Assembly (NCBI GenBank): GCA_945861535.1
Contig: CAMAUZ010000072.1
Location: 1 to 40,791, forward strand
DNA: 40,791 nucleotides
Source of the DNA: Akkermansia muciniphila
Lineage (GTDB): Bacteria > Verrucomicrobiota > Verrucomicrobiia > Limisphaerales > BJHT01
Reading direction: 5' to 3'
Positions 3,187 through 36,562 of this stretch are shown here, one piece after another. The position numbers and the translations under genes are program-made. Within the stretch, counting starts at the first letter, position 1; each line of letters opens with the position of its first letter. Below the pieces are notes generated by a model that searched no databases, was not told the origin of the DNA, and saw only the letters and a list, made by a program, of their open reading frames with translations.

Positions 3187-3286
3187 GGAACTGGGCGTCC
3201 CGTACGCAGTGCGTTCGCAGTGCGGAGGTCGTTAGAATATTCCGCCGCTCCCTTGCCGCACCATGCACTGCGACCGGGGACCGGTC

Positions 3287-3445
3287 GCGCTCCGCTTTGG
3301 TTGCGGCTCCCCCGCCCTGTACTACAACCCTGCAAAATCCTCGCGCGCCGCGAGGATTTTTCGGTGGCATGGACGGCCACTTCAGTCCGCTTCCAATTCT
3401 TCCCTTCCCATTCCCTTGCCCCAAATTCCCCTGCCAAATTCAACC
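3287..3445. repeat. Dispersed non-coding repeat shared with 7400-7548 (inverted)
   Basis: This stretch contains, in order, tcgcgctccg, ttggttgcgg, ctgtactacaaccctgc, a cgcgaggatttt block, and aaattcccctgccaaa. The reverse complement of 7400-7548 holds the same blocks in the same order with modest divergence (for example ctgtaccataaccctgc). It is therefore a dispersed element of at least 150 bp rather than chance similarity. Confidence 0.65.
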
Positions 3446-3701
3446 CTGCTTGCGGCGGCTCCGTCCCGCGCCGCCATCCCGATCTCCCCTGTCCCGCCAC
3501 GCCTTGAGCGCGCACCACGGGACCACCGGGTCGGAATACTCCGGCGTTCCTTGCCTCCGTCCCCCTCTGCGTTCCTTCCGATCTCTGCGGTGTTCCACTC
3601 CGCGCCACCACCATCGGGGCGTTTTCTCGAAACACCGCAGAGATCGGAAAGAACGCAGAGAAGAAGAGGGCGGAAGCGCCCGCGCCGCGAGGATTTTCCC
3701 C

Positions 3702-3830
3702 GGAGCGCGGCTGTGTGTGCGGAGCACCAGCCGCAGCAGCTTGGTCGCATGAGATGCCTCCGATTTCAACGGGTGCCTCTGAGGATTCGGGGCCGCTGCG
3801 GCTGGTCCTCGACGGACACAGCCGCGCTCC
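3702..3830. repeat. Composite inverted repeat, family 'GGAGCgCGGCTGTGTG', copy 2
   Basis: The arms ggagcgcggctgtgtgtg and cacagccgcgctcc enclose a spacer that is itself similar to the spacer of copy 3 at 7672-7800 (shared gatttcaa and gctgcggctggtcctc blocks). The whole unit, not only its arms, is therefore conserved between loci. Confidence 0.85.
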
Positions 3831-3906
3831 TTCGTTGGGGCTCCCCCGCGTTGTGTTCATCGCATCTCGGTGGTCCTCTCCGCATTTGCAACTGCGAGGC
3901 CCCAAC

Positions 3907-5478
3907 TTACTGCCGCGCGATATTCGGCCGCCCGCCGCGCAGGATGTATTTCTGAATCTTCCCCGTGGCGGTTTTGGGCAGTTCGGCGATGAACGTGAAG
4001 CCCTGCGGCACTTTGAAATGCGCGAGGTGCGCGCGCGCAAACTGCCGCAGTTCGCTCTCCGTCACGACCGCACCCGCCTTGAGCACGACGAACGCCTGCG
4101 GTGACTCGCCCCACTTCTCATTCGGCACGCCGACCACGGCCACTTCCTGCACGGCGGGATGCCGCAGCAGCAGGCCCTCGACTTCCACCGACGAAATATT
4201 TTCGCCGCCGCTGATGATGACATCCTTGAGCCGGTCGCGGACTTCGAGATAGCCGTCGGGATGCACCACCGCCGCGTCGCCGGTGTGGAACCAGCCGTCG
4301 CGAATCGCCTGGGCCATGCCTGCTTCATCGCGATAATAGCCGGCCATCACCGCGTTGCCGTGGACGACGATCTCACCCAGGGCCTGACCGTCGCGCGGGA
4401 CCTCGCGGCCCTGTTCGTCCACCACGCGCAGATCGCCGGAGGTGATCAGCTCGACACCTTGACGCGCCTTGATTTCGCCGCGGGCGCGGGCGTCGAGGGT
4501 CGCGTGTTCCGGGCGCGGTTCGCAGATGGAAATGAACGGCGACACCTCGGTCAGTCCATACACTTGCGTGATTTCCCAGCCCAGTTCCCCCTCAACGCGC
4601 TCGATGGTCGCCGCCGCCGGCGGTGCGCCCGCGGTCAACACCCGCAGCCCGCGCGGAGCCAACCGGCGCAGCTCGGCGGGTGCATTTGCGATGCCGATGA
4701 GCACCGTCGGCGCCGCACACAGCAGCGTGACGGCTTCGCGCGCGATGCTCTCGAAAATGGCCCGCGGCTCGGCCTTTCTCAGACAGATGTGCGCGCCACC
4801 CACCGCAGTGATGATCCAGACAAAGGTCCAGCCGTTGGCGTGAAACATCGGGACCGTCCAGAGATAGCGGTCGGCGCAGGTCAGGTGCAGATGCACGAGC
4901 GTGCCGATGACATTGAGCCAGGCGTTGCGGTGGGTGATCATCACGCCCTTGGGCCGCGCGGTCGTGCCGCTGGTGTAGTTGAGGGAAAGGAGGTCGCTCT
5001 CCTTGATCGCGGGCCGCACAAAGTCCGGCGGCGCGTACGCGAGGGTCGCTTCGTAATCCAGCCAGCCGGTCTTGCCGCCCTCCAACGCGACGAAGTGCTC
5101 GACGCCCGGCACTTGCTCCCGGATGCGATCCAACGTCTCGAGATAATCCGGGTGCGCGCACACCACGCGCGCGCCGCTGTGACCGATGATGTAGGCGAAA
5201 TCGTCGGCAGCCAGACGGTGGTTGATCGGCACCGTGACTGCGCCGATCTGCGGCACGGCATAGAAGGCCTCAAGCTGCGCATGAGTGTTCGGCCCGATGT
5301 AGGCCACGCGATCCCCGGGCCGTACTCCGAGACGTTGCAACGCCGCCGACCAGCGGTCGCAGCGCTCGAAGAACTGCCGATAAGTCAGCCGCAGCGGGCC
5401 ATCCACGACGGCGAGTCGGTCCGCGTAAAGCTTGCGCGCGCGGCGCGCGAATTCCAAGGGAGTGAGAGGTGATTCCAT
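3907..5478 (-). CDS. Acyl-CoA synthetase / AMP-dependent ligase
   Basis: A 523-aa cytoplasmic member of the ANL superfamily, near the normal family length. It activates a carboxylic acid with ATP to an acyl-adenylate and then forms the CoA thioester. Visible core motifs are the P-loop LNYTSGTTARPKGVMITH (near residue 168), VYGLTEVSP (A5-like), GWFHTGDAAVVHPDGY and DRLKDVIISGGENIS (hinge), and the catalytic lysine in LPKTATGKIQKYILR near the C-terminus. All key residues are present. The best overall match by eye is to medium- or long-chain fatty acid (or aryl) CoA ligases; the substrate cannot be deduced. ATG at 5478 gives a full N-terminus. It is monocistronic and diverges from the GSK-repeat gene across 256 bp. 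Confidence 0.9.
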   Translation of the reverse strand: MESPLTPLEFARRARKLYADRLAVVDGPLRLTYRQFFERCDRWSAALQRLGVRPGDRVAYIGPNTHAQLEAFYAVPQIGAVTVPINHRLAADDFAYIIGHSGARVVCAHPDYLETLDRIREQVPGVEHFVALEGGKTGWLDYEATLAYAPPDFVRPAIKESDLLSLNYTSGTTARPKGVMITHRNAWLNVIGTLVHLHLTCADRYLWTVPMFHANGWTFVWIITAVGGAHICLRKAEPRAIFESIAREAVTLLCAAPTVLIGIANAPAELRRLAPRGLRVLTAGAPPAAATIERVEGELGWEITQVYGLTEVSPFISICEPRPEHATLDARARGEIKARQGVELITSGDLRVVDEQGREVPRDGQALGEIVVHGNAVMAGYYRDEAGMAQAIRDGWFHTGDAAVVHPDGYLEVRDRLKDVIISGGENISSVEVEGLLLRHPAVQEVAVVGVPNEKWGESPQAFVVLKAGAVVTESELRQFARAHLAHFKVPQGFTFIAELPKTATGKIQKYILRGGRPNIARQ

Positions 5479-5649: not shown

Positions 5650-5677
5650 TTGACGAACCGAAGTTCCGTGCTAGTTT
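5650..5677 (+). promoter_or_regulatory. Candidate sigma70-type promoter for the GSK-repeat gene
   Basis: TTGACG (5650-5655), a 16-bp spacer, then TAGTTT (5672-5677) preceded by GC. This would start transcription near 5684 and leave a leader of about 50 nt before ATG 5735. The -35 box is good and the -10 box weak. It is the only convincing -35/-10 pair in the divergent region. Confidence 0.4.
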
Positions 5678-5684
5678 CGGCGGG

Positions 5685-5699
5685 ATTCCCAAGGGGAAT
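5685..5699. promoter_or_regulatory. 15-bp perfect palindrome at the predicted transcription start
   Basis: ATTCCC-AAG-GGGAAT is a perfect 6-bp dyad around a 3-bp centre, immediately downstream of the candidate -10 box and next to a second short palindrome (GGAATTCC). Its position suits an operator for a dimeric repressor, but no regulator is linked and it may be fortuitous. Confidence 0.3.
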
Positions 5700-5734
5700 T
5701 CCTCAGAAAAACTCAAAACCATCACTCGGTAATT

Positions 5735-7207
5735 ATGAAGTACACCCGTTGTTTGGAAAACCTCCGCGCCCCCGTGCTCGGCGTCCTCTTTGGCGCCCTG
5801 GCCTTGGGCCTTTCAACGCCATCCGCTCGCGCCTTGGACGTCCAAGGCTGCATCAAGCTGGATGGCAAACTCACCAAAGGCGTGACCGTCGAAGCATTCG
5901 ACGTCCGGACCTGCACCTCGCTGCTGAGCACGGTAACGGATGCCAACGGGGACTTTGTCCTGTGGTCCGCCGCCGGACAGAACCGGAATCTCTACCTGCA
6001 GATCACCGCCCCGGATGGCTGCATCGAGATCGTGGACAACGCGACCGTCTGCAACAGCATCGTCACCGATCCGTCGGACCCCCGCTACCTCTGGGTCGCC
6101 CTGTGCGTCGATGTGAAGTGCGCCTGCGTCCCCTGCACCACCGGCATCTCCAAGGTGGTCCTCCAATACTTGGGCACGACCACGCAGCCCATCACGGCCT
6201 GGGCCACCGGCAGCACCACTGGCAGCAAGGCCGGCAGCAAGAAGGGCAGCAAAAAGACCTCCACCATCGGCACGATTGCCACGGCCACGACCTGTACGCT
6301 CTGGGGCAAGACGGGCCACAAGGCCGGACACAAGTGCATCGCCGCATGTCAACCCGTGTCCGGGAGCAAGGCCAAAGGATCCAAAGGATCCAAAAGCTCC
6401 AAGGGATCGAAAGGATCGAAAGGCTCCACCCCGATCACCCCGATCTTCGCCAGCGCGGTGCAACCCTGCACCACGTTTACCATCAACCTCCCGACCACCA
6501 CGGTCGCGGGCAGCAAAGGCAGCAAGGGCAGCAAAGGTATCAAGACTGGTAGCAAGAGCGGCACCAAGATTGGTAGCAAGAAGGGTAGCAAGAAGGGTAG
6601 CAAGAAGGGCAGCAAGAAGGGCACCAAGGGCACCGTCACCGGGCTTACTCTCTTCGTCGGCGCCAACGTCAACACCCGTCTCGACCTGAGTTGCGCCACC
6701 GGCATCAACGCGGGCCAGATCATCGGCATGTTCAAGGTTATCCGCGTGGAAAATGCCCGGGGTCAGCGCATCTGCTCCAATCCCAAGCCGCCCCAAACCG
6801 GCAACTGCTTCACCAAGACCCAACCCAATCAGATCACCTTCCAGTATGTCGGCGGCAACTGCAGCACGGCGGTGAACTCGCAGAAACGCGGCACCAAGTA
6901 TAACTGCACGGACTCCGGCTCCATCGCCGCCGGCCCGGTCCGCATCGTGGTCTGCAACAGCGCCACCCCGGCCACCACCGGCTTCTTCGCCGCCAACGTC
7001 ACTCGCGGCCAGACCTTCGTCGTCAAGGCGGGGGGCGCTGGTGCCAAGACCAAGACCGGCACCTTTGGTGCCAAAACCTACTGCTACATCTACTCCGGTG
7101 GCGTGCTCGTCGAACGCATTCAATTCGACAGCACCTGCCAGTCGCCCCTCATCCCCGGAGAGACCTGTGGTGCGCTTAAGCTCATCAGCTACGCCGTCGT
7201 GCCCTGA
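5735..7207 (+). CDS. Secreted GSK-repeat, cysteine-rich protein
   Basis: A 490-aa protein with a signal peptide (residues 1-34, cleavage likely after ARA). Residues 35-80 resemble a small carboxypeptidase-regulatory-like beta-sandwich (VTVEAFD, then TDANGDFVL). Three lysine-rich clusters of G-S-K and G-S-K-K units follow at about 159-174, 209-230 and 259-300, separated by Cys-containing segments. The C-terminal part (about 303-490) has paired motifs (ITFQYVGGNCS, VRIVVCNS, RIQFDSTCQSPL, CGALKLISY) resembling the extracellular domain family I recall as DUF7467; that name is from memory. The mature protein would be very basic and probably disulfide-bonded, so binding to a polyanion (exopolysaccharide, extracellular DNA, teichoic-like polymer) is a reasonable inference, not a demonstrated function. 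It has its own candidate promoter and a strong terminator, so it appears monocistronic. Confidence 0.8.
   Translation: MKYTRCLENLRAPVLGVLFGALALGLSTPSARALDVQGCIKLDGKLTKGVTVEAFDVRTCTSLLSTVTDANGDFVLWSAAGQNRNLYLQITAPDGCIEIVDNATVCNSIVTDPSDPRYLWVALCVDVKCACVPCTTGISKVVLQYLGTTTQPITAWATGSTTGSKAGSKKGSKKTSTIGTIATATTCTLWGKTGHKAGHKCIAACQPVSGSKAKGSKGSKSSKGSKGSKGSTPITPIFASAVQPCTTFTINLPTTTVAGSKGSKGSKGIKTGSKSGTKIGSKKGSKKGSKKGSKKGTKGTVTGLTLFVGANVNTRLDLSCATGINAGQIIGMFKVIRVENARGQRICSNPKPPQTGNCFTKTQPNQITFQYVGGNCSTAVNSQKRGTKYNCTDSGSIAAGPVRIVVCNSATPATTGFFAANVTRGQTFVVKAGGAGAKTKTGTFGAKTYCYIYSGGVLVERIQFDSTCQSPLIPGETCGALKLISYAVVP
6572..6619 (+). repeat. 12-bp tandem repeat encoding GSKK
   Basis: Four consecutive 12-bp units: three identical ggtagcaagaag and one ggcagcaagaag, within the third GSK cluster. 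Further degenerate 9-bp GSK units lie at about 6214-6258, 6361-6426 and 6508-6540. Exact 12-bp repetition allows copy-number change without a frameshift. Confidence 0.9.
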
Positions 7208-7228
7208 TACGGTCTGACCCCATCGCAC

Positions 7229-7260
7229 GGCGGGCAGTCGCAAGACCGCCCGCCTTTTTT
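7229..7260 (+). terminator. Rho-independent terminator after the GSK-repeat gene
   Basis: The stem GGCGGGC/GCCCGCC is extended by GTC/GAC around one A-C mismatch, with a GCAA tetraloop, followed directly by six T (7255-7260). It begins 21 bp after the TGA of the GSK-repeat gene. Confidence 0.9.
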
Positions 7261-7399
7261 ATTGCTCCCGAGTCGCGCCACCAGTTCCGAGCGGTTGATT
7301 CTCCCCTACCGACGCTCCGCACCGAACCGTCCCTTCCGCCCGAAAACAGCGGATGGGCGGCTGCCAGTGCGCGCCGCCGTCTTCGGGGGACACAACCGA

Positions 7400-7548
7400 G
7401 TTTGGCAGGGGAATTTCGGAGAGGGGACTGGGGAAGTGACGAACTGGGGACGGGGCGAGCGTGGCAGGAAAAATTCTCGCGGCACGCAAAGATTCTGCAG
7501 GGTTATGGTACAGCGCGGCGGGGCCGCAACCAACGGAGCGCGGCCGTC
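7400..7548. repeat. Inverted copy of the 3287-3445 dispersed repeat
   Basis: The blocks gggttatggtacagcg, ttggcaggggaattt and gagcgcgg appear here in the order expected for the reverse complement of 3287-3445. In both loci the element lies near a composite palindrome of the GGAGC family. Confidence 0.6.
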
Positions 7549-7671
7549 CCGGCCGCAGCGGCAACACCGAAGCCGGGGCGTTGGAGATTTGTTGCGCCCT
7601 CGCGGGTGCGTAGCGGCTGCGGGCGGGACGCCCGCGCTCCGGAATCCTCGGCGCGCGCGAGGATTTCTCCC

Positions 7672-7800
7672 GGACCGTGGCTGTGTGCGCGGAGCACCAG
7701 CCGCAGCAGGTTGGCCGCACGGGAGGCGTCTGATTTCAATGTGCGCCCATGACGTTTTGGGGCTGCTGCGGCTGGTCCTCGGTGGACACAGCCGCGCTCC
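7672..7800. repeat. Composite inverted repeat, family 'GGAGCgCGGCTGTGTG', copy 3
   Basis: Arms tggctgtgtgcgcggagcac and cacagccgcgctcc, with an internal segment homologous to that of copy 2 (gatttcaa, then gctgcggctggtcctc). It is preceded, as copy 2 is, by a cgcgaggattt block. Confidence 0.85.
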
Positions 7801-7882
7801 TTGGGTTGCGGCTTCGCCGCTCTGTGCTCATCGTGTCCCCGTGGTTCTCACAGCGGTTTTCACGGCATAGATACGGCTACGA

Positions 7883-8279: not shown

Positions 8280-11200
8280 TCAAAGCTTGGCGGCTTTGGT
8301 GGCGGTGGCGGCGGGAGCGGCTGGGGCAGCGGGCGCAGCGGCGGCCGGGGGAGCAACGGGTTTGCCGGCGGATTTTAGTTTTTCGTATTCGCCGGTGAGT
8401 TTGTCCAACTGGGCTTTTTCGGTGGTGACGGGGGCGGTGAGTTGGTCGGCGGCGGCTTTGGTGGCGGCGGCTTGTTGGGCGGCGTCTTTGATCATGGCCT
8501 CGAGCTTCGTGATCTTGGCGGGGAGGCTGGCGAGTTCTTCCTTGGAGGCGGTGAGTTGTTGCTCGGCTTGCTTGACGGAGGCGGTGGCGGCTTCGGCTTC
8601 GTCGAGGAAGCGGTCCTGCACGAGCTTGTCGGCCAGGTATTTTTCGCGGGCGTGATAGACCTGCGTGAAGAACTGGCCGGCTTTGAGGCGGTCGATGGAG
8701 GTTTTGGTGAACGCGATTTCGGTCCGGGCCTTGGCGACAGCGGCCTTGGCGTCGGTTTCGGCTTTGGCGGCGGCCTCGGCCTGGGTGGCGAGGGTTTTGG
8801 CGGTGGCGGTGTCGCGCGTGGCGTTGGCGACGACGGCTTTGGCGGCGGTGTCGGCGTCGGTTTTGGCCTTGGTGGTGGCGAGGGTCGCGGCCGTCGCGGC
8901 GGCGGTGAGTTTGGCGACGGTGGCTTCGAGGGTGGTGAAGGCAGTCGCGGTGCGGGCGGCGGTGGCCTTGGCGGCGGCGAGTTCGGCACTGGCTTTGTCC
9001 GCAGCGGCCTTGGCGTCGGCTTCGGTCTTGGCGGCGGCGGCGAGTTGCGGGGCGAGGGCTTTGGTCGCGGCGGCGCTCGTGGCGGCGGCCTTGGTGGCGG
9101 CGTCAGCGTCGGCCTTGGTTTTGGCGGTCGCTTGCGCGGCGGCGGTGAGGGCGGCGGCGAGCTGGGTCGCGGCGGTTTCGACCGCGACGAGCCGGGTTTT
9201 GGCGGCGGCGGGGGCGGTTTTGGCAGCGGCGAGGTCGGCCTGAATTTTGTCGGCGGCAGTTTTGGCGGCGGCGGCGGCGTTGGCGCTGGCGGCGGCTTGT
9301 TCGAGCAGGGCTTTGGCCTTGGCGTCGTCGGGCGGGACGGACTTGCTCGCGGCGTCGGCCTCCGCCTTGAGCTTGGCTCCGGTTTGCGCGGCTTGGGTCA
9401 GGGTGGTGGCGAGCTGGGCGGCGGTGGCTTCGAGGGAGGCGAGGGCGGTCTGAGTGGTGGCGGCTGCGGCTTTCGCGGCGGCGAGGTCGGCCTGGGCTTT
9501 GTCGGCGGCGGCTTTCGCGGCGGCCTCGGCTTTGGTGCTGGCGGCTATGGCGTCGGTCAGTGACTTCACCTTGGCGTCGTCGGTGGCGGCGGTTTTGGCG
9601 GCGGCTTCGGAATCGGCTTTGAGCTTGGCGCCGGCCTGTGTGGCGGCGGTGAGCGCGGCGGTGAGTTTGGTGGCGGAAGCTTCGAGCGTGGTGACGGTGG
9701 CTTTGGCGGTGTCGGCGGCGGTCTTGGCGGCGGCGAGTTCGGCCTGGGCCTTGGTCACCGCGGCTTTGGCATCGGCTTCGGTTTTGGCCGCGGCTTCAGC
9801 CTGGGCGGCGAGGGTCTTGGCGGTGGCGGCGTCCTTGGCGGCGTTGGTGGCGAGGGCGTCGGTGTCGGCTTTGATTTTGGCGGAGTTTTGGCGGGCCTGG
9901 TCGGCGGCGGTTTGGAGCTTGGCGAGTTCGGCCTCGAGTTCGGCGAGGCGTTTTTGCGTGAGCGGGATTTGCTCGGCGATGGGGAGCGGATTCAGCGTGA
10001 GACCCGGGAGCGGGGTGCCGTCCTCGACTTTCCACGCGTGGACTCGGCCGGACCAGTCGGAGGCGATGACGCGGGAGCCGTCGTGGCTGAGGGTGACGCG
10101 GACGGGGAGATCGTCGGCGAGGGTGAAGGATTTGACCTTGGTGCCGGCGGCGTCCCAGACGGCGACGGTTTTGTCGCGGCCGCAGGTGGCCATGCGGCCA
10201 TCGGGGAGGGCTTTGGCGAAGAGCGTGCCGCCGGGGTGGGCGACGAGGTTTTTGACGGGGGCGCTTTCGGAGACATCCCAGGTTTTCACGGTGCCGTCTT
10301 CGCTGGAAGTGATGAGCACTTCGGGGCTGCGCCAACTGATCGAGGTGATGGGGCCTTTGTGGCCGACGAGGACTTGGAGTTCTTCGCCGGTGTCGGCTTC
10401 CCAGACGACGAGGCCGCCGCTGCGGTCGCCGGTGGCGAGGTAGGTGCTCGAGGGATTGAACTCGGCGGTGGTGACCCAGTCGGTGTGTTTCTTGCGTTTG
10501 TAGAGCTGCTCGCCGGTGGCGGTGGAATAGAATTTCACGAGCCGATCAGGGCCGCCGAGGGCGATCCATTTTTGATCGGAGGAGATGTCGGCGGCGAGGG
10601 CGACGTCGAGTTCCTCGCCGGCGGTGAGGATGCGTTCGCCGGTGGTGATGTCCCAGACGGCGGCGAGGCCTTTGTTCGCGCCGCGGCCGCCGCCGACGAT
10701 GAGGAGCTTGCCGCTGCGGCTGAATTTGGCGTCGTGGGGGAAGCCCTCGGGAAAGGGCAGGACGCCGGTGAGTTCAAAGGTCTCGGTGTTGTAGAGGAGA
10801 ATCTGGCGCTGGCCGCCGAGGGCGATGAGGGGCGCCCACGGGCTGGCGGCCATGGCGGTGGAAACGCTGGTGCGCTCGGTGCGGACGACGGGTTCGCGGA
10901 GGAGATCGCCGGGCATGGGCGGCGGGCCGGCGGGTTTGCCGAAGGAGGCGGAGCCGAGGGTGAGATTGGTCTTGGGTTTCTTGGAGACGAGGGCCTTGCT
11001 GCCGGAGTTTTCGAGGAGGCCGCCGGCGATCCAGGCCTTGATGAGATCGAGTTCCTTCACGGCCAGCTTGTTGTTCGGCGGCATGGTCGGGTCTTCCGTG
11101 TGCATGACGCTCTTGAAGAGCTTGCTGCCGTCGGGATCGCCGCCGAGGAGGACCACGCCGGAGCTGCCGCCTTTCATCGCGCCGCTGAAGGTCGAGAGAT

Positions 11201-11399
11201 CGAGGTCGCCCTTGGCCTTGTCCGGGTTGTGGCACTTGAGGCACTGGTTGCGGAGGATCGGGACGATGTGCTCGTCGTAGGTGACCTTCGCAGCCGCGGC
11301 GGCGGGCGCGGGCGCGGGGGTTTGCGCGGAGGCGAGGGCGAGGGTCGCGGCGAAAGCGGCGACGGCGGGGACGACGTGGAGGACGCGGGATGTTTTCAT
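8280..11399 (-). CDS. Exported cytochrome c-WD40-alanine-rich coiled-coil fusion
   Basis: A 1039-aa protein with three parts. Residues 1-26 are a signal peptide. Residues about 40-130 form a PSCyt1-type cytochrome domain with the heme motif CLKCH (53-57) and a likely Met ligand in PTMPPNN. Residues about 180-480 form a WD40 propeller (for example SWRSPEVLITSSEDGTVKTW and LATGDRSGGLVVWEAD). From about 490 to 960 it is almost entirely Ala/Lys/Asp/Thr, built of roughly five degenerate units of 70-75 residues (AAKTEADAKAAVTKAQAELA and similar) that should form a very long coiled coil, followed by a less repetitive coiled segment and a Pro/Ala tail. Cytochrome-WD40 fusions are common in this phylum; the 500-residue Ala-rich rod is unusual and may span the periplasm. 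It is fourth in the operon, 52 bp after the Big2-DUF1549-DUF1553 gene. Confidence 0.85.
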   Translation of the reverse strand: MKTSRVLHVVPAVAAFAATLALASAQTPAPAPAAAAAKVTYDEHIVPILRNQCLKCHNPDKAKGDLDLSTFSGAMKGGSSGVVLLGGDPDGSKLFKSVMHTEDPTMPPNNKLAVKELDLIKAWIAGGLLENSGSKALVSKKPKTNLTLGSASFGKPAGPPPMPGDLLREPVVRTERTSVSTAMAASPWAPLIALGGQRQILLYNTETFELTGVLPFPEGFPHDAKFSRSGKLLIVGGGRGANKGLAAVWDITTGERILTAGEELDVALAADISSDQKWIALGGPDRLVKFYSTATGEQLYKRKKHTDWVTTAEFNPSSTYLATGDRSGGLVVWEADTGEELQVLVGHKGPITSISWRSPEVLITSSEDGTVKTWDVSESAPVKNLVAHPGGTLFAKALPDGRMATCGRDKTVAVWDAAGTKVKSFTLADDLPVRVTLSHDGSRVIASDWSGRVHAWKVEDGTPLPGLTLNPLPIAEQIPLTQKRLAELEAELAKLQTAADQARQNSAKIKADTDALATNAAKDAATAKTLAAQAEAAAKTEADAKAAVTKAQAELAAAKTAADTAKATVTTLEASATKLTAALTAATQAGAKLKADSEAAAKTAATDDAKVKSLTDAIAASTKAEAAAKAAADKAQADLAAAKAAAATTQTALASLEATAAQLATTLTQAAQTGAKLKAEADAASKSVPPDDAKAKALLEQAAASANAAAAAKTAADKIQADLAAAKTAPAAAKTRLVAVETAATQLAAALTAAAQATAKTKADADAATKAAATSAAATKALAPQLAAAAKTEADAKAAADKASAELAAAKATAARTATAFTTLEATVAKLTAAATAATLATTKAKTDADTAAKAVVANATRDTATAKTLATQAEAAAKAETDAKAAVAKARTEIAFTKTSIDRLKAGQFFTQVYHAREKYLADKLVQDRFLDEAEAATASVKQAEQQLTASKEELASLPAKITKLEAMIKDAAQQAAATKAAADQLTAPVTTEKAQLDKLTGEYEKLKSAGKPVAPPAAAAPAAPAAPAATATKAAKL

Positions 11400-11451: not shown

Positions 11452-13890
11452 TCAGTGGTTGAAGATGAATTCTTTGGAGTTCAAGACGGACCAGAAGAGA
11501 TCGTTGAGGACGGTTTCCTTGTCGGCACCGGGGGCGGTGGTGAAGGCGAGGAGTTTCTCCTGCTCGACCTTGGTCGGACCGCGGGAGAAGCAGCGCCAGT
11601 AGATGTCGTCGATGATTTGCGCGGGGATTTTGCCTTCCTTGAGCAGCGCCTTGGTGAGGCCGCCGGAAGTGATCTTGGTGTTGACGGTGTCGCCATTGAG
11701 GAGGTGCAGGGCCTGCGAGAGGTTCGGCTCCATTTTCACTTCGCACGAGCAGACGGTGTCGCGGCTGGCGCGGCCGAACGTGCTCAGGAAATAAGTGGTG
11801 GTGCGGCCGTCCACGATCTCGACGGCGCGCGCGCCGAGCGGCAGGCCGCGGAATTTATCTTTGGTGGTGGTGACCTGGTTGATGGCGTCGAGGAGGACCT
11901 CGGCGCGAAGACGGCGGATGCCGGCGTGGGCGAAGTTGCGGGTGTCGTCGGCGTTGGTGGGATTGGTCTTGGACGCGAGTTGGTAGGTGCGCGAGGTGCA
12001 GATGTCGCGGACGAGCTTCTTGAAGTTGTATTTGGAATCGGTGAAGCGGCGGCCAAGTTCCTCGATGAGTTCGGGATTGGAGGGCGGGTTGGAAATGCGG
12101 ACGTCATCGACTTCATCCACGATGCCCATGCCGAAGAAGTGCGCCCAGACGATGTTGGCGAGGTTGCGGGCGAAGAAGGGGTTCTCGGGGGACGCGAGCC
12201 ACTTGGCGAGGCTCTCGCGGCGGTCCGCACCGGATTCCAGCGTGGGCTTGGCACCGCCGAGATATTTCGGGGGCATGTCCTTGTTGCCGACGGGATGCGT
12301 GACGCCGCCGCTGGCGCGATTGAAGACGACGGTCTCGCGCTGGTCCTCGCCGGTCTTGCGGCCGATCTGCGCGAAGAAGGCGGCGAAACTGTAGTAGTCG
12401 TTCATGGTCCAGCGGTCGAAGGGATGGTTGTGGCATTGGGCGCACTGGATGCGCATGCCCATGAAAACCTGCGCGACGTTCTCGGTCATTTTCAGCATGT
12501 CGGTCTCGACCTTGTAGAAGTTCGCGGCGGGATTGGCGAAGGTGCCGCCGGTGGCGGTGAGGAGGTCCTGGACGAGCCGGTCGATGGGGACGTTCTGCGC
12601 GAACTGGTCCTCGAGCCAACTGTAGTATTGGAGGGCGGACTTGTATTGGAAGGTGTTGTTGTCGGTGCGGACCTGGAGCAGCTCGGCCCATTTCATCACC
12701 CAGATTTTGGTGAACTCGGGGCGCTCGAGGAGTTCGTCGATTTTCTTGTCGCGCTTCTTCGGATCGGTGCTGGCGAGGAAGGCGTGGGTCTCTTCGGCGG
12801 TGGGAAGGGCGCCGGCGATGTCGAGGGAGACGCGGCGGAGAAAGGTGCCGTCGTCGCAGACTTCGGAGGGCTTGATGCGGATTTTCTTGAGCTTCGCGTG
12901 GACGAGGGTGTCCACGTAGTTGTTCTCGGCGACGTTCGGGAATTCGTAGGTCGGGTCCTTCGGGATCGAGAGCACCTGCGAGCCGACGGTGTAGGCATCG
13001 AAGCGCGCCATGATGAAGGCTTCGCCGCGTTTGTCGGCGGTAACAAGGCCGGACTTGGTGACCTTGGCCGCGCCTTCGTTGTTGGTGATGAACGTGCAGA
13101 GGCGGGTGATGTCGCGGTCGGTGCCGTCGGTGTAGCGGGCGCGCACGGTGAACTGCTGCGACGCGCCGGCCCCTTCGAGCACGGCCTGGGTCGGATAAAT
13201 CTGCACGTCCACGACGGAGGCGACATCGCCGGCATCCTTGGGCGCGCCGGCCTTCAGCCACTGAATCACGGTCTGGTAAAGGTCGCCGTCGGGTTCGATG
13301 CACTTGCCGCCGGTGTGCTGCACGCGGGCGGTCGCCTTGTCGAGGAGGAGGCTGTCATCGGGGAGCGCGAGATTAATGCGGCGGCCGGGCTGTTCGCGCG
13401 TGATGCGGTGATAATCGCCGTCGGGATCGAAGCCGAAAACGGAGAGGCGGAAGCCGTCCTTGCCGCGCGCGGAACCGTGGCAGCTCCCGGTGTTGCAGCC
13501 GCCTTTGCCGAAGACGGGCATGACATCGAGCTGGAAGCTGATCGGCGGAGTGAAGGAGGATTTTTCAACGACGACGGGCACGGTGAGCGTGCGGCCTTCG
13601 AACTTGAGTTGCAGCTCGGTCTTGCCGTCGGCGAGCGGATAAACGGTGGCCTTGTCGAGCTTCGCGAGCTTCGGGTCGCCGAGCACCATCGTGGTCTGGG
13701 CGGTCACGTCGCGCGTGGTGCTGTCGGAGTAAACGGCCTGCACGACGACGGCCTGGTAGTCGATCTTGGAGGAGAGGTTGACGTCCTGGGGGAAGACCTT
13801 GACGGCGACCAACTCGGGGGCCTTGGCAAGCGCGACGAACGGCACGAGCAACGCCAGACCGGCGAGGAGACGGGGGGAGAACTTCTTCAT
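11452..13890 (-). CDS. Secreted Big2-DUF1549-DUF1553 (planctomycete-type cytochrome-associated) protein
   Basis: An 812-aa exported protein with signal peptide MKKFSPRLLAGLALLVPFVA. Two bacterial Ig-like (Big2) domains lie at about 25-110 and 226-312. Between them is a heme-like segment GCNTGSCHGSARGKDGF, in which the cysteines are four residues apart (C132, C137, H138), a CX4CH rather than CXXCH motif. DUF1549 (about 320-535) contains a canonical CAQCHNHPFDRW site (C483, C486, H487), and DUF1553 fills 565-800. Proteins of this architecture are characteristic of Planctomycetota and Verrucomicrobiota and nearly always neighbour DUF1501 genes, as here. The biochemical role is unknown; exported redox enzyme acting on a polymer is a common guess. 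It lies 72 bp after the PPC-domain gene and 52 bp before the cytochrome-WD40 gene. Confidence 0.9.
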   Translation of the reverse strand: MKKFSPRLLAGLALLVPFVALAKAPELVAVKVFPQDVNLSSKIDYQAVVVQAVYSDSTTRDVTAQTTMVLGDPKLAKLDKATVYPLADGKTELQLKFEGRTLTVPVVVEKSSFTPPISFQLDVMPVFGKGGCNTGSCHGSARGKDGFRLSVFGFDPDGDYHRITREQPGRRINLALPDDSLLLDKATARVQHTGGKCIEPDGDLYQTVIQWLKAGAPKDAGDVASVVDVQIYPTQAVLEGAGASQQFTVRARYTDGTDRDITRLCTFITNNEGAAKVTKSGLVTADKRGEAFIMARFDAYTVGSQVLSIPKDPTYEFPNVAENNYVDTLVHAKLKKIRIKPSEVCDDGTFLRRVSLDIAGALPTAEETHAFLASTDPKKRDKKIDELLERPEFTKIWVMKWAELLQVRTDNNTFQYKSALQYYSWLEDQFAQNVPIDRLVQDLLTATGGTFANPAANFYKVETDMLKMTENVAQVFMGMRIQCAQCHNHPFDRWTMNDYYSFAAFFAQIGRKTGEDQRETVVFNRASGGVTHPVGNKDMPPKYLGGAKPTLESGADRRESLAKWLASPENPFFARNLANIVWAHFFGMGIVDEVDDVRISNPPSNPELIEELGRRFTDSKYNFKKLVRDICTSRTYQLASKTNPTNADDTRNFAHAGIRRLRAEVLLDAINQVTTTKDKFRGLPLGARAVEIVDGRTTTYFLSTFGRASRDTVCSCEVKMEPNLSQALHLLNGDTVNTKITSGGLTKALLKEGKIPAQIIDDIYWRCFSRGPTKVEQEKLLAFTTAPGADKETVLNDLFWSVLNSKEFIFNH

Positions 13891-23386: not shown

Positions 23387-25993
23387 ATGCCCATCAAGCG
23401 CGAAGAACTGGCCAAACAAATTGCCGACCGGCTGAACGTCCTCGCCAACCAGTTGAAGACCCGCTCGCGCGCGAGCTTCACCGACGCCAATCACTCGCTC
23501 GAGTTCGTCATGGCGCGGTTCTTCAACGCCCTCTTCGCTTGGAACCTCACCGACCTCAATGCCGTGCAGGCCAACTTCCCCGCCGCCGACCTTGGTGATC
23601 GCGCCCGGCGCATCGCGATGCAGATCACGAACGAGGAGTCGTCGCAGAAAATCAGCGGCACCGCGACCAAGGCCGCCGAACATCGGCTCGGCCAGCACTT
23701 CGACCGCCTCATCATTTTCTTCCTGCTCCCGCGCAAGCCCGGCCTGCCGAAGAAATTCGCACGCCCGCACGGCGCGTCCGAAATCGAGTGCTGGGACCTG
23801 ACCGACCTGCTGAAGCAGATGACCAACCTGCCGGACGTGAGCGCGCTCGCGGCGGCGGCGAAGGTCTTGGATGAAGAGCTGGGAAACACGCCCGCCGCCC
23901 TCAGCACCCTCCACACCCTTCCGCCCAATCCCCTCCACGCAGGCTTCGTCGGCCGCACCACCGATCTCGCCAAGCTCCGCGCGCTTAATCCCGCCGCGGG
24001 CGCGCACCTCACCGGGTTGCGCGGGATGGGCGGCATCGGGAAGACCGCGCTCGCCGTCGTCCTTGCGCACGAATGGGCGCCGCGCTTCCCGGACGCGCAG
24101 TTCTTCCTCGATGCCCGCGGCACGCAGCCGGACCCGCCCAGCGCCGGCAAGCTCATGGAGCAGGTCATCCTCGCCTTCCATCCCACCGCGAAGCTGCCCG
24201 ACGACCCCGCCGCCATCGCGGGCATCTATCGCGACGTGCTCGGCGGGAAACAGGTGCTCCTCCTCCTCGACAATGCGCGCGACGCCACGCAGGCCGCGCC
24301 GCTCATCCCGCCGGCGGGCTGCGCGCTCATCGTCACCTCGCGCCACAGCTTCATGCTGGGCAAGACCGCGCCGCACGATGTCGGCCGGCTGCCAGCGGCG
24401 GAGGCCGTCGCGCTGCTGCGGGAATACCACGGCGCGCTCGGGGATGCGGAGGCCGCCGCGCTGGTGAAGCTCTGCGCCGGGCTGCCACTCGCGCTGCGTC
24501 TCGCCGGGGCGCACCTCGCGCTGGATGCCGCCGAGCGCGGCGGCACGCCGGATGTCGCGGGCTATCTGAAGCTGCTCGGCGGCGGACGGCTGCAGCATCT
24601 CGATGCCGAGGCAGCCGAAGCGGGCGAAGTCACCATCTCCGAGACCCTGCGCCTGAGCGAAGCGCAGCTCGCGGAGGCGGAGCGCGCGGCGTGGCGCGCG
24701 CTCGGCGTGTTCACGGCGAGCTTTGATGCCCGCGCGGCGGCGGCGGTAGCTCGCCCCGAAGTAGCTCGACATTCCAGTGTCGAGACGCAGCCCGCCGACT
24801 CGACATTGGAATGTCGAGCTACCGAGATGCTCGGCCACTTCGTCCGCCGCAGCCTGCTGGAGCGCGAGGGCGCGGAACGCTTCAAGGTCCACGACCTCGC
24901 CGCCGACTACGCCCGCACGCAGCTCGACAACCCCGCCCGCACCGCCCTGCACCTTGCCCATGCCCGGCACTACACCGCGGTCGGCGATGAAGCCGATACC
25001 ATTTACATGAAAGGCGATGCCGTGGGCGGCCTCGCGCTGTTCGACCGCGAGCGCGCGCAGCTCGAGGCCGCCTACGCGTGGCTGGATGCCGAGGTGGGGC
25101 GCGGTGTCCTCACCGCGCCGCCGCCCGGTAGGGCCGCGCTGCCGCGCGGCCGTGGCAACGAAGTAGGTGACGCCTCCGCAAGTTCGTGGCGGGGTGAGGA
25201 CAACCCGCCCTACCTGGCCGCCGCCCGCCAGCTCCTCGATCTCGTGAATGCCGTGGTCTATACCGGGCAAGAACTGCGCTTCCATCCGCGCCAGCGCATC
25301 GCCTGGCTGGAGAGCCAGCTCCGCGCCGCCCGTCTCGCGAAGCACCGCGAGGCGGAAGGCAGCGCGCTGGGCAACCTCGGCCTCGCCCACGCCGACTTGG
25401 GCGACGCGCGCAAGGCCATCGCGTATCACGAGCAGGCGCTGGTCGTCAGCCGCGAGATCGGCGACCGGCGCGGGGAAGGCAACGCGCTGGGCAACCTCGG
25501 CAGCGCCCACTTCGCCTTGGGCGACGCGCGCAAGGCCATCGAGTTTTACGAGCAGCAGTTGGTGATCGTCCGCGAGATCGGCAACCGGCGCGGGGAAGGT
25601 AACGCGCTGGGCAACCTCGGCAGCGCCCACGCCGCCTTGGGCAACGCGCGCAAGGCCATCGAGTTTTACGAGCAGCGCCTGGTCATCGCCCGCGAGATCG
25701 GCGACCGGCGCGGGGAAGGCAACGCACTGGGCAACCTCGGCATCGCCCACAAGAACGTGGGCGACGCGCGCAAGGCCATCGAGTTTTACGAGCAGCACGC
25801 GGGCATCGCCCGCGAGATCGGCGATCGGCGCGGGGAAGGCAACGCGCTGTTCAATTCCGCCGTCGCGCACGACTCGCTGGGGAATCGTCCCGAGGCCATC
25901 GCCCGCGCGGCGGCGGCGCTGGCGATTTACGAGGCCATCGAAAGCCCGGCCGCCGCGCAGGTGCGGGCGACGCTGGCGAAGTGGCGCGGGTAG
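23387..25993 (+). CDS. SMEK-NB-ARC-TPR STAND protein, putative conflict/immune NTPase
   Basis: An 868-aa protein starting at ATG 23387. Residues 1-150 match the SMEK domain in character (FFNALFAWNLTDLNAVQANF, DLGDRARRIAMQITNEESSQ, then FDRLIIFFLL). An NB-ARC NTPase follows: Walker A GMGGIGKTA (213-221), Walker B KQVLLLLDNA (288-297), LIVTSRHS (314-321) and GLPLAL (365-370). A winged-helix-like segment runs to about 510. Five 40-residue TPR units occupy 657-856. In STAND ATPases the repeat domain senses a trigger, the NTPase oligomerises, and the N-terminal domain is effector or adaptor; applied here this is inference. The reading frame contains two palindromic repeat insertions (459-479 and 570-609), and its stop codon lies in a third repeat copy. 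No second effector gene is adjacent, so it may be a single-gene system. Confidence 0.88.
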   Translation: MPIKREELAKQIADRLNVLANQLKTRSRASFTDANHSLEFVMARFFNALFAWNLTDLNAVQANFPAADLGDRARRIAMQITNEESSQKISGTATKAAEHRLGQHFDRLIIFFLLPRKPGLPKKFARPHGASEIECWDLTDLLKQMTNLPDVSALAAAAKVLDEELGNTPAALSTLHTLPPNPLHAGFVGRTTDLAKLRALNPAAGAHLTGLRGMGGIGKTALAVVLAHEWAPRFPDAQFFLDARGTQPDPPSAGKLMEQVILAFHPTAKLPDDPAAIAGIYRDVLGGKQVLLLLDNARDATQAAPLIPPAGCALIVTSRHSFMLGKTAPHDVGRLPAAEAVALLREYHGALGDAEAAALVKLCAGLPLALRLAGAHLALDAAERGGTPDVAGYLKLLGGGRLQHLDAEAAEAGEVTISETLRLSEAQLAEAERAAWRALGVFTASFDARAAAAVARPEVARHSSVETQPADSTLECRATEMLGHFVRRSLLEREGAERFKVHDLAADYARTQLDNPARTALHLAHARHYTAVGDEADTIYMKGDAVGGLALFDRERAQLEAAYAWLDAEVGRGVLTAPPPGRAALPRGRGNEVGDASASSWRGEDNPPYLAAARQLLDLVNAVVYTGQELRFHPRQRIAWLESQLRAARLAKHREAEGSALGNLGLAHADLGDARKAIAYHEQALVVSREIGDRRGEGNALGNLGSAHFALGDARKAIEFYEQQLVIVREIGNRRGEGNALGNLGSAHAALGNARKAIEFYEQRLVIAREIGDRRGEGNALGNLGIAHKNVGDARKAIEFYEQHAGIAREIGDRRGEGNALFNSAVAHDSLGNRPEAIARAAAALAIYEAIESPAAAQVRATLAKWRG
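24761..24822. repeat. In-frame palindromic insertion in the STAND gene (family 'GTAGCTCGACATTCC')
   Basis: The left arm at 24761-24784 and right arm at 24799-24822 are 24-bp reverse complements with one mismatch, around a 14-bp spacer. The arms begin gtagctcgacattcca and end tgtcgagctac. A partial extra copy of the arm start (gtagctcg) precedes it at 24746. It encodes a low-complexity linker (residues 459-479) between the NTPase and the TPR part. Confidence 0.9.
25094..25213. repeat. In-frame 120-bp composite palindrome in the STAND gene (family 'GTRGGGCGCGGTGTCC')
   Basis: Ends gtggggcgcggtgtcctcac and its approximate reverse complement (ggtgaggacaacccgcccta) at 25193-25213, with an inner gccgcgc/gcgcggc hairpin. 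It is exactly 120 bp (40 codons, residues 570-609), so the frame is preserved. The encoded stretch is Gly/Arg/Pro/Ser-rich and unlike the flanking helices. Confidence 0.75.
25355..25954 (+). repeat. Five tandem 120-bp units encoding TPRs
   Basis: Units start at 25355, 25475, 25595, 25715 and 25835. The middle three are nearly identical at the DNA level (gcgcgcaaggccatcgag, gagatcggcgaccggcg and gggaaggcaacgc recur in each); the first is slightly and the last strongly diverged. Consensus protein blocks are EGNALGNLGSAH, DARKAIEFYEQ and AREIGDRRG. Confidence 0.92.
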
Positions 25994-33494: not shown

Positions 33495-36188
33495 TCAATC
33501 CACATACAAAAACCCATTCGCGCTCAAAAACGCGTGGCACAGGCTCGTCAACGCCGCCAGCTCCGGCTCCGGCGTTTTCGCCGCCTCGGCCACCTTCGCC
33601 TTCGCGCTCGCGCCCGCTCCCGTCGCGGTCGCCGCCGCCGCGACCGGCGTCACCGCCTTCGCCGCCTTCGCCGCCTGCGCGCGATAATGCGCGAGCTGCG
33701 CCGCCAGATGCCCAACCGCCGCGCGCGTCTGCACCTCACTCGGCCGCACCGAGAATGCCAGCCTCCACGCCCGCACCGCCTGCGCCCGCGGCTCCGCGCC
33801 TACCTCCGTCTGCACGCGCTGCGCGAGATGCTCCGCCAGCGCGAGCACCTGCTGGTTGTTCATCAGCATCAACGACTGCGGCGCGACGGTCGTCGCGTTC
33901 CGCGCCTCGCAGTTCGGCTCCATCACCGGCGCATCGAACGCCTCCAGCATCCCCAGCGGACGGCTCCGCTGCACGATCACATACAGGCTGCGGCGGAACT
34001 CCTCATTGTTCAGCGGAATCCACGCGCCCGGCTTCCCTTCGCCGTCCTTGTTCTCCTTGCCGATGATGATCTGCCCCACGTCGTCCTCCATCACCGGGAC
34101 CGGCGGACCGTAAAGCTTCGGATTCAATTTCCCGCCGACCGCCAGCATCGCATCGCGAATCGTCTCCGCCTCCAGCCGCCGGATGCTCATGCGCCCCAGC
34201 AACCGATTGTCCGGATCAATCCGGTCGCCCTCGGCCGTGCGCGTCGCGACCTGCTGCCACGCGTGCGACGTGAGGATGAGCTGATGCAGCTTCTTCAAAC
34301 TCCACCCCTGCGCGACAAACTCGCTCGCCAGCCAGTCGAGCAATTCGGGATGCGTCGGCCGCTCGCCGAGAAAACCAAAGTCGCCCGGCGTGCCGACCAG
34401 TCCGCGTCCGAAGTGGTGCATCCACACACGGTTCACCAGCACTCGCGCCGTCAGCGGATGCCCGCCGTCGGTGAGGCTTTTCGCCAAAGCCAGCCGGCGT
34501 CCGCTCGAAGTCAGCGCCGCGTCTTTCGCCGGAATCTTCGCCGGATGCGCCGCCGCCAGCACCACCGGCTCGCCCGGATCCACCGCCGCCTTCGGCTGAT
34601 CCGGATCACCGCGATGAAACAAATGCGTCGCCGGCAGCGGCCCCGCGCTCTCGGTGAGCACATGCAGAAAATCCTCCACTGGCTTGGTCGCGCGCTTGGC
34701 CGCGGCTTCCTCGGCGGCCTTCTTCAACTCCGCAGCCGCCTTGGAATCGTAGAGATACAGCGAGCCTGGCGACACGTTCAGGCTCGGATATTCCTTGAGC
34801 AATTTCTGCTGCGCCGGCGTGCGTTTGTCCGCGGCCGTCTTGCGCGCCTCGCGGGCCGGCTCGCGCAGGTCCTCGGCGAGTTTGGCGATCTCCTTCACCA
34901 GCGTGGCCTCGATGAATCCGTCCTCTTTCACCTTCCGCGCCGCATCGAGCTTGGCAGCCTCGGCCTCGACGCCGGCGGCCTTCGCGCGGTCGGCGTCGGT
35001 CTGGAGCGACAGCAGCCGCGCGGTCGGCGTGCGCCAGTTTTTCCAATCCAAGGCCGGCTCGAAGATCGCGCGGAAGCGGTAGTAATCCACCTGCGGAATC
35101 GGATCGTAGCGATGATCGTGACATTCGGCGCAGCCCATCGTCAGGCCGAGCAGCGAGGTCGAAACAATCTTGAGCGTGTCCGCGACCACGGCGTTGCGCG
35201 TGACCTTGGCCTCGATAGTCGTCGTGGCCGTCCCATCGGGCGCCATGCGGAGAAAGCCCGTGCCGGTGAGGGTTTCGATGGCGTCGGCGGGGAGATTTTT
35301 CAGCGGCGGTTTCACCAGTTCATCGCCCGCGAGTTGCTCGACGATGAAGCGGTCGAAGGGCTTGTCCGCATTGAACGAGCGGATGACGTAGTCGCGAAAT
35401 TTGTAGGCATAGTTGCGAACGGGATCGGCCTCCGTGTAGCCATCCGAGTCCGCGTAACCCGCCACATCGAGCCAGTGCCGGCCCCAGTGTTCACCGTAAT
35501 GCGGCGAGTCGAGCAGCCGCTGAATCAGCCGCTCGTAGGCGGATGGCGACTTGTCTGCGACAAACGCCTCGACCTCCTCCGGCGTGGGCGGCAGGCCGAG
35601 CAGATCGAACGACGCGCGCCGGATCAGCGTGCGCTTATCTGCCGTCGGCGAGAACCCCAGCCCGTTCGCGCGCAGCTTCGCGAGCAGGAAGGCGTCGATG
35701 GGATTGCGCCCGGGATCGCCTGGATTCCGCCGCGGCACCGGCGGACGCTTCACCGGTTGAAACGCCCAAAAGCCCCGTTCTTCCTCGGTGAAATACGGCT
35801 CCTTCCCCAACTGCTCCGGCTCGGCGCGCAACGTCCGCGCGCCGCCCGCGATCCAGCGCCCGATCGTCTGCACCTGCGCCGCGCTGAGCTTGTGTTCGCC
35901 CTTGGGCATCTCGCCTTTTTGGATCAACTCGAACAACCGGCTCGCCTCGGGCTTCCCCGGCACAATCGCCGGCCCGCTCTCGCCGCCCTTCACTAGCAGC
36001 CGCCGCAGACGCGCGTCGAGACCGCCCTTGGTCTTCTCACCCTCGCCGTGACATTGGAAACAATTCGCCTTGAGGATCGGCCGCACATCGCGCTCGAACG
36101 AAAGTTCCGCGCCCGCCGCCCCGCCGAGACCGGACGCCAACGCGGCAACCAAGACACTGAGGATACGCACCGCGCTCAGACACCGCAC
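33495..36188 (-). CDS. PSCyt1-DUF1549-DUF1553 exported protein
   Basis: An 897-aa exported protein. GTG at 36188 (or GTG at 36170) is proposed as the start because it gives a signal peptide ending GGAAGA; the upstream in-frame sequence to 36488 is repeat-like and not conserved in character. The PSCyt1 cytochrome domain (about 28-120) has the heme motif CFQCH (43-47) and a likely Met ligand in KGEMPKGEHKLS. DUF1549 (about 162-370) opens NPIDAFLLAKL and contains LLDSPHYGEHWGRHWLDVAG and GCAECHDHRYDPI. A Lys/Ala-rich helical insertion separates it from DUF1553 (about 620-870: VNRVWMHHFGRGLVGTPGDF, SIRRLEAETIRDAM). It is the canonical partner of DUF1501, 195 bp downstream. Confidence 0.9.
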   Translation of the reverse strand: MRCLSAVRILSVLVAALASGLGGAAGAELSFERDVRPILKANCFQCHGEGEKTKGGLDARLRRLLVKGGESGPAIVPGKPEASRLFELIQKGEMPKGEHKLSAAQVQTIGRWIAGGARTLRAEPEQLGKEPYFTEEERGFWAFQPVKRPPVPRRNPGDPGRNPIDAFLLAKLRANGLGFSPTADKRTLIRRASFDLLGLPPTPEEVEAFVADKSPSAYERLIQRLLDSPHYGEHWGRHWLDVAGYADSDGYTEADPVRNYAYKFRDYVIRSFNADKPFDRFIVEQLAGDELVKPPLKNLPADAIETLTGTGFLRMAPDGTATTTIEAKVTRNAVVADTLKIVSTSLLGLTMGCAECHDHRYDPIPQVDYYRFRAIFEPALDWKNWRTPTARLLSLQTDADRAKAAGVEAEAAKLDAARKVKEDGFIEATLVKEIAKLAEDLREPAREARKTAADKRTPAQQKLLKEYPSLNVSPGSLYLYDSKAAAELKKAAEEAAAKRATKPVEDFLHVLTESAGPLPATHLFHRGDPDQPKAAVDPGEPVVLAAAHPAKIPAKDAALTSSGRRLALAKSLTDGGHPLTARVLVNRVWMHHFGRGLVGTPGDFGFLGERPTHPELLDWLASEFVAQGWSLKKLHQLILTSHAWQQVATRTAEGDRIDPDNRLLGRMSIRRLEAETIRDAMLAVGGKLNPKLYGPPVPVMEDDVGQIIIGKENKDGEGKPGAWIPLNNEEFRRSLYVIVQRSRPLGMLEAFDAPVMEPNCEARNATTVAPQSLMLMNNQQVLALAEHLAQRVQTEVGAEPRAQAVRAWRLAFSVRPSEVQTRAAVGHLAAQLAHYRAQAAKAAKAVTPVAAAATATGAGASAKAKVAEAAKTPEPELAALTSLCHAFLSANGFLYVD

Positions 36189-36562
36189 CGCGCGGCCAGA
36201 GAAAAATTCGGGAAGCACGCGGAAGCTGACGATGCTCGGTGAGGGCGATTCACCGCCGCGCCGGAGCGCGGGCGGCCCGCCTGCGCTCGTGCGCCTGAGC
36301 AGACGGGAAGCCAACGCGGTGGCAATCCGCTCGGGCGCGGAGGGCCAGGCAAGGCTGAAATGAAAACGGCAGTTGAAACTGAGAATCCCCGCACAAAACC
36401 CGCTAAACACAGATGAAAACCGGCGTCCGTGGCTTCCCCTGCCGGGTGAATCAAAGTTTTCCAAATCGCGTTCCCGATCGGTGTCCATCCGTGTCCATCC
36501 GTGGATGAACCGCCGCTTCCCGGTTCAAACCCGTCTCCCTCCCCCGGTCTGCTGACCGGCGC
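36189..36562. other. Non-coding spacer with ATCCGTG heptad repeats
   Basis: No gene is supported. The tract gtgtccatccgtgtccatcc (from about 36480) is a short tandem repeat of the 'atccgtg' type seen scattered in many such genomes, with a diverged relative upstream (aacacagatgaaaaccgg). It should hold the promoter of the PSCyt1 gene on the minus strand. Confidence 0.5.

Follow-up and report, generated by a model that had tools for sequence, protein, structure and literature searches.

Which part of a probably exported bacterial protein carries repeated Gly-Ser-Lys clusters, and what might such clusters do outside the membrane? These questions arose from a first-pass annotation of a 40,791-nucleotide stretch of DNA (the window) from a probably lake-dwelling verrucomicrobial bacterium, which described a gene at 5735-7207 as encoding a signal-peptide-bearing, Cys-rich and polybasic protein with three GSK clusters and exact 12-bp repeats, transcribed as its own unit. 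We compared the gene with its relatives in a set of four sequences from two genomes, comprising the window gene, a paralogue in the same genome (C60:3885-5219) and the orthologue of each in a congener.

The gene, its transcription unit and its probably exported product

The open reading frame has exactly the bounds 5735-7207 (+) and encodes a predicted exported protein of 490 aa, and the gene proved to be real on the basis of the reading frame, the alignment of the four relatives and purifying selection on the frame. An antisense ORF (5813-7243, minus strand) overlaps the gene; the selection signal is carried by the plus frame. The assignment to a transcription unit of its own also held, with a divergent AMP-binding ligase gene upstream (3907-5478, minus strand), a convergent gene for a PSCyt1/WD40 protein downstream (8280-11399, minus strand), and both a terminator and promoter-like boxes that are conserved. 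The boxes TTGACG-16 nt-TAGTTT, preceded by TGC (5650-5677, +), were recognised in the alignment of the four upstream regions and are kept in the orthologue and partly in the paralogues (TTTG...GTGCTA); conservation is the sole basis on which we term them promoter-like. The intrinsic terminator GGCGGGCAGTC-GCAA-GACCGCCCGCC-TTTTTT (7229-7260, +) lies directly 3' of the stop codon, is conserved in all four relatives and folds with -23.7 kcal/mol (z -2.8), and its pattern has one match within the window against 0.01 expected. While a consensus scanner called neither a promoter nor a terminator at the gene, the terminator is clear from folding and conservation. About 30-55 nt ahead of the start codon, the 5' leader is predicted to form a hairpin (5681-5705, +) of nine pairs, five of which are kept in the four-relative alignment through changes on both sides; these changes mostly split the two paralogue clades and may therefore be single events. 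Searched against the whole genome, the leader model matched only the window gene and its paralogue (E 8e-10 and 4e-9; next match 0.6).

A dispersed intergenic repeat begins directly behind the terminator (7260-7880) and recurs in the window at 2692-2859, 3268-3441 and 3671-3878. A genome search, in which 40 of 595 first-look candidates were scored, returned at least 168 matching pieces, many of them 80-90% identical across 200-500 bases, and one copy lies directly upstream of the paralogue (G000:C60:3257-3622). Elsewhere in the window, the genes at 8280-11399, 11452-13890 and 33495-36488 (all minus strand) encode PSCyt1/WD40 and PSCyt2/PSD1 (DUF1549/DUF1553) proteins, the first with a long Ala/Lys-rich, repetitive coiled-coil-like C-terminal part, and the gene at 23387-25993 (+) encodes a protein of 868 aa whose N-terminal SMEK domain (E 8e-31) precedes a set of tetratricopeptide repeats.

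The product begins with a putative signal peptide (residues 1-33; 5735-5833, +), consisting of an n-region with K/R, the hydrophobic stretch VLGVLFGALALGL and S-A-R-A preceding L34, with a probable Sec/SPase I cut after ARA. This call was made by visual judgement of the n-, h- and c-regions rather than by a predictor, together with conservation in all four proteins, and the protein is thus probably exported, in line with the initial description. As neither an anchor nor a secretion-system signal could be identified in the protein, periplasm, cell surface and medium are indistinguishable as destinations. Its description as Cys-rich and polybasic is equally apt: the protein holds 22 Cys, and the mature form has a computed pI of 9.7 and a charge of about +38. 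The four relatives contain 17-22 Cys each, many of them invariant, and the protein probably forms disulphides. Residues 34-125 (5834-6109, +) constitute an N-terminal domain that evolves slowly (dN/dS 0.09 to the orthologue) and weakly resembles CarboxypepD_reg (PF13620), with an E-value of 0.0054 for the domain alone and a score of 17.5 bits, below the curated cut-off of 32.3.

Two copies of the DUF7467 fold

The C-terminal part (residues 363-486; 6821-7192, +) is a canonical DUF7467 domain (PF24269), with a Pfam E-value of 3.3e-21 and a score of 76.6 bits (cut-off 27), and spans positions 1-116 of the 116-position profile. This agrees with the domain named in the first-pass annotation, which had called the family essentially uncharacterised; our literature search retrieved no paper on DUF7467. 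The protein as a whole had been pictured as GSK segments plus this one C-terminal domain, and while these parts are indeed present, the arrangement is a different one. Residues ~131-347 (6125-6775, +), which hold the GSK clusters, appear to form a first, diverged DUF7467-like copy. As Pfam does not recognise this copy, whether the loops are kept or removed, we term it homologous to DUF7467 and not a Pfam member. Profile comparison of copy 1 with copy 2 by hhalign gave an E-value of 0.0055 untrimmed and of 1.9e-5 (score 34.6) after trimming of the linkers at hand-chosen boundaries, and none of 200 column shuffles of the trimmed test scored as well (12.1 +/- 2.3, at most 20.2). The N-terminal domain matched neither copy in the same type of comparison. 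In a MAFFT alignment, all eight copies from the four proteins fall in register. Aligned with each other, copy 1 appears as 'QYLG ... ATPLF-A-V-PCTTFTI ... LTLFVG--VNTR-LDLSC--G---GQ-IGMFKVIR' and copy 2 (residues 363-490) as 'QYVGG ... SATP-TTGFFA-NV--G-TFVV ... YIYSGGVLVERI---SC--PLIPGE--GALKLISY'. The reading of the GSK clusters as insertions in two loops of a diverged DUF7467 copy, and not as joiners of two different domains, is thus well supported by these alignments.

An AlphaFold2 (AF2) model of copy 2, built from eight alignment rows, predicted an eight-stranded beta-sandwich (pLDDT 80.5, pTM 0.79), with poor prediction solely at model residues 72-79, which correspond to the loop that carries cluster 3 in copy 1; the better quality of this model is not credited to the extra alignment rows alone. 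The full-length model (pLDDT 40) is too poor for use by itself and places the strands of both halves in the same order at low confidence. Foldseek searches of the PDB and BFVD gave no match at E <= 0.001 for the copy 2 model, and a sequence search of the PDB gave no match. VIA-align ranked C2 domains first (Z 5.0-5.8, rmsd 2.7-3.6 over 83-95 residues). Such Z values lie inside the range of common arrangements, are often reached by unrelated sandwiches, and are not decisive for a relationship to C2 domains.

Lysine-rich loops and their turnover

The GSK clusters stand far above expectation, with 16 occurrences of the tripeptide, whereas 5000 shuffles of the same residues contained 0.49 on average and never more than 5, and all three described clusters are present (residues ~163-174, ~210-229 and ~259-299). 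Clusters 1 and 2 lie in loop A (residues 157-231; 6203-6427, +) and cluster 3 in loop B (residues 251-301; 6485-6637, +), and each of the two loops contains 15 Lys, no Arg and no acidic residue. The exact 12-bp repeats were found in loop B as tandem units, with GGTAGCAAGAAG at 6572, 6584 and 6596 followed by GGCAGCAAGAAG at 6608, and the length variation that they had been taken to imply was confirmed by comparison of the paralogues and orthologues.

In the four proteins taken together, the eight loops carry a net charge of +0.17 to +0.29 per residue with 0-2 acidic residues, and their Lys:Arg ratio is 86:1, compared with 54:52 in the rest of the mature proteins; this contrast is significant in each protein (Fisher p 5e-5 to 1e-3), with the repeat units being non-independent draws. 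At the DNA level, the loops differ. Loop B encodes serine mostly by AGC in all four proteins. In loop A, TCN codons prevail in both C60-type proteins and, within the window protein, in cluster 2. One copied DNA unit therefore does not explain the shared peptide motif, and since similar loop peptides come from different DNA units, the codon pattern argues for selection on the peptide, with selection for a lysine-rich flexible loop as the simpler reading.

Identity between the C60 and C222 orthologues amounts to 94-97% in the domains and to about 68% in the linkers, whose lengths are 41 versus 54 and 31 versus 43 residues. Orthologue comparisons gave dN/dS values of 0.07-0.09 for the N-terminal domain, of 0.08 in one pair and 0.46 in the other for DUF7467, and of about 0.35 for the linkers, whose alignment is uncertain. 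The most interesting feature of the locus is that the loops retain their charge and their choice of lysine while the underlying DNA repeat turns over fast. We also noted that the window DUF7467 (6821-7204; compared with L012:2763-3155) is 74-77% identical to the paralogues and 65% to the orthologue, the opposite trend to the N-terminal domain, which is 95% identical to the orthologue; this could reflect either rapid change in C546 or gene conversion among the paralogues.

That the loops are neutral low-complexity linkers, generated by replication slippage and tolerated at the surface, would fit the tandem 9- and 12-bp units and the fast turnover of length and sequence. We nevertheless regard this reading as unlikely, considering that all eight loops are high in Lys, nearly devoid of Arg and poor in acidic residues, and that loops A and B reach their GSK peptides from different serine codon families.

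The complete layout appears so far to be restricted to its own genus. All three relatives combine the signal peptide, GSK-type linkers and DUF7467, so that homologues with both parts, on whose existence the first-pass annotation had staked its proposal, do exist. A survey of 320 genomes of the order disclosed the full layout in none but the own genome and the congener ('Verrucomicrobiota bacterium LBMAG_Verrucomicrobia_hypo.bin2'), DUF7467 exceeded the cut-off in these two alone among 387 genomes of the phylum, and plasmids, phages and viral contigs yielded nothing convincing outside the genus. Weak DUF7467 matches in G255, G124 and G375 of the same phylum were rejected as unrelated large exported proteins or as below the cut-off, and a hybrid query against plasmids returned only chance matches to transposases (E 2-4). 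A GSK query identified no other GSK-rich protein in the genome, a type of low-complexity search that can miss members. In another genus of the same order, the protein of L006:1498-2349, which has no Pfam match, has only the signal peptide and N-terminal domain in common (E 5e-8) and continues into a C-terminal part of its own that contains the motif GYWRNHPEAWP.

Proposed function and relation to known systems

Starting from the observed architecture, loop placement, conserved charge, lysine preference and transcription unit, we propose, with about even confidence, a Sec-exported beta-sandwich protein whose lysine loops tie it to anionic material outside the membrane. The signal peptide would be followed by a small carboxypeptidase-regulatory-like domain, the diverged DUF7467-like domain and the canonical DUF7467, and two copy-1 loops would have grown through tandem repeats into flexible stretches of Gly, Ser, Thr and Lys. 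Probably stabilised by disulphides, the folded domains would then serve as a scaffold from which the 18-30 lysine amines of the loops project like an electrostatic brush, binding anionic polymers or surfaces via many weak contacts. Such a brush could fasten the protein, and with it the cell or its matrix, to acidic exopolysaccharide, lipopolysaccharide, DNA, mineral or silica surfaces, and the protein accordingly has a likely role in attachment, in organising the matrix or in binding anionic particles. Polyanion binding, already suggested in the first-pass annotation, is what we infer, as we do the ligand and the biological role; the gene neighbours suggest no binding partner. The gene illustrates how a domain of unknown function can acquire a polycationic surface through repeat expansion within its loops. 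Should anionic material prove to be what the loops bind or cross-link, the gene pair would offer a compact handle on particle attachment or matrix building in uncultured freshwater Verrucomicrobiota.

Simple charge binding would not require loops with lysine as practically their only basic residue, and two more specific readings remain, involving either mineral and silica or lysine-amine chemistry. The first is a silaffin-like binder, whose Lys/Ser/Gly loops would interact with, or help to precipitate, silica or another mineral at the cell surface. The R5 repeat of diatom silaffins, SSKKSGSYSGSKGSKRRIL, contains KK, SGSK and GSK as well (PMC3806462), the loops use lysine instead of arginine, and the name of the congener suggests a lake hypolimnion as habitat. 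We give this reading a slim chance, as the likeness is one of low-complexity sequence without homology, no modification enzymes lend it support, and R5 has arginine as well. The second is lysine-specific covalent cross-linking, in which the loops would act as amine donors into an extracellular matrix or sheath. Both the near-exclusion of arginine from the loops and their flexible Gly/Ser context fit an accessible donor of this kind; still, no transglutaminase, oxidase or sortase-like gene was seen beside the locus and no Lys-Asp/Asn-Glu isopeptide arrangement was identified, and we likewise consider it quite improbable. Equally low is the probability that we assign to a genus-private bacterial counterpart of silaffins, in which the lysine-only, arginine-excluding loops of an exported and folded scaffold would bind or template silica or some other mineral, or have their amines covalently modified or cross-linked. 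A cytoplasmic nucleic-acid-binding protein lacking a signal peptide, for which the high charge and the lysine-rich low complexity reminiscent of histone-like tails might speak, is very improbable given the conserved signal-peptide-like N-terminus with its SPase I-type site, the many invariant cysteines and beta-sandwich domains typical of exported proteins.

Returning to the proposed scaffold with its lysine brush, its closest points of comparison differ in kind. Diatom silaffins share the Lys-, Ser- and Gly-rich composition with KK, SGSK and GSK (PMC3806462), whereas the window protein is non-homologous and bacterial, has folded carrier domains and is nearly free of arginine in its loops. CarboxypepD_reg (PF13620) and related small beta-sandwiches are weakly similar to the N-terminal domain, which we treat as a lead only, given the score under the curated cut-off. 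A further lead, on which no claim is built, came from a DUF7467-type consensus that matches DUF7467 at 1e-17. It pointed to two haloarchaeal plasmid genes (L028:2308-3273 and L029:2272-3237) for camelysin-like exported proteins ending in a DUF7467-like domain, located immediately ahead of a signal peptidase I gene, with other SipW-dependent proteins in the vicinity. Their C-terminal domain shares the pattern V.PG.TF ... HISCSQPFGPG and a weak hhalign match to copy 2 (E 0.007), but it is sub-threshold in Pfam (E 0.22), follows a camelysin-like N-terminus in an unrelated neighbourhood and lacks lysine loops. Among known systems there is lastly DUF7467 (PF24269) itself, whose full profile copy 2 covers and for which it yields a beta-sandwich model, while the domain occurs here as a tandem pair, the first member having diverged past recognition by Pfam and been enlarged by Lys/Gly/Ser loops. 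We regard the finding as a variant within this known domain family, not as a new kind of system.
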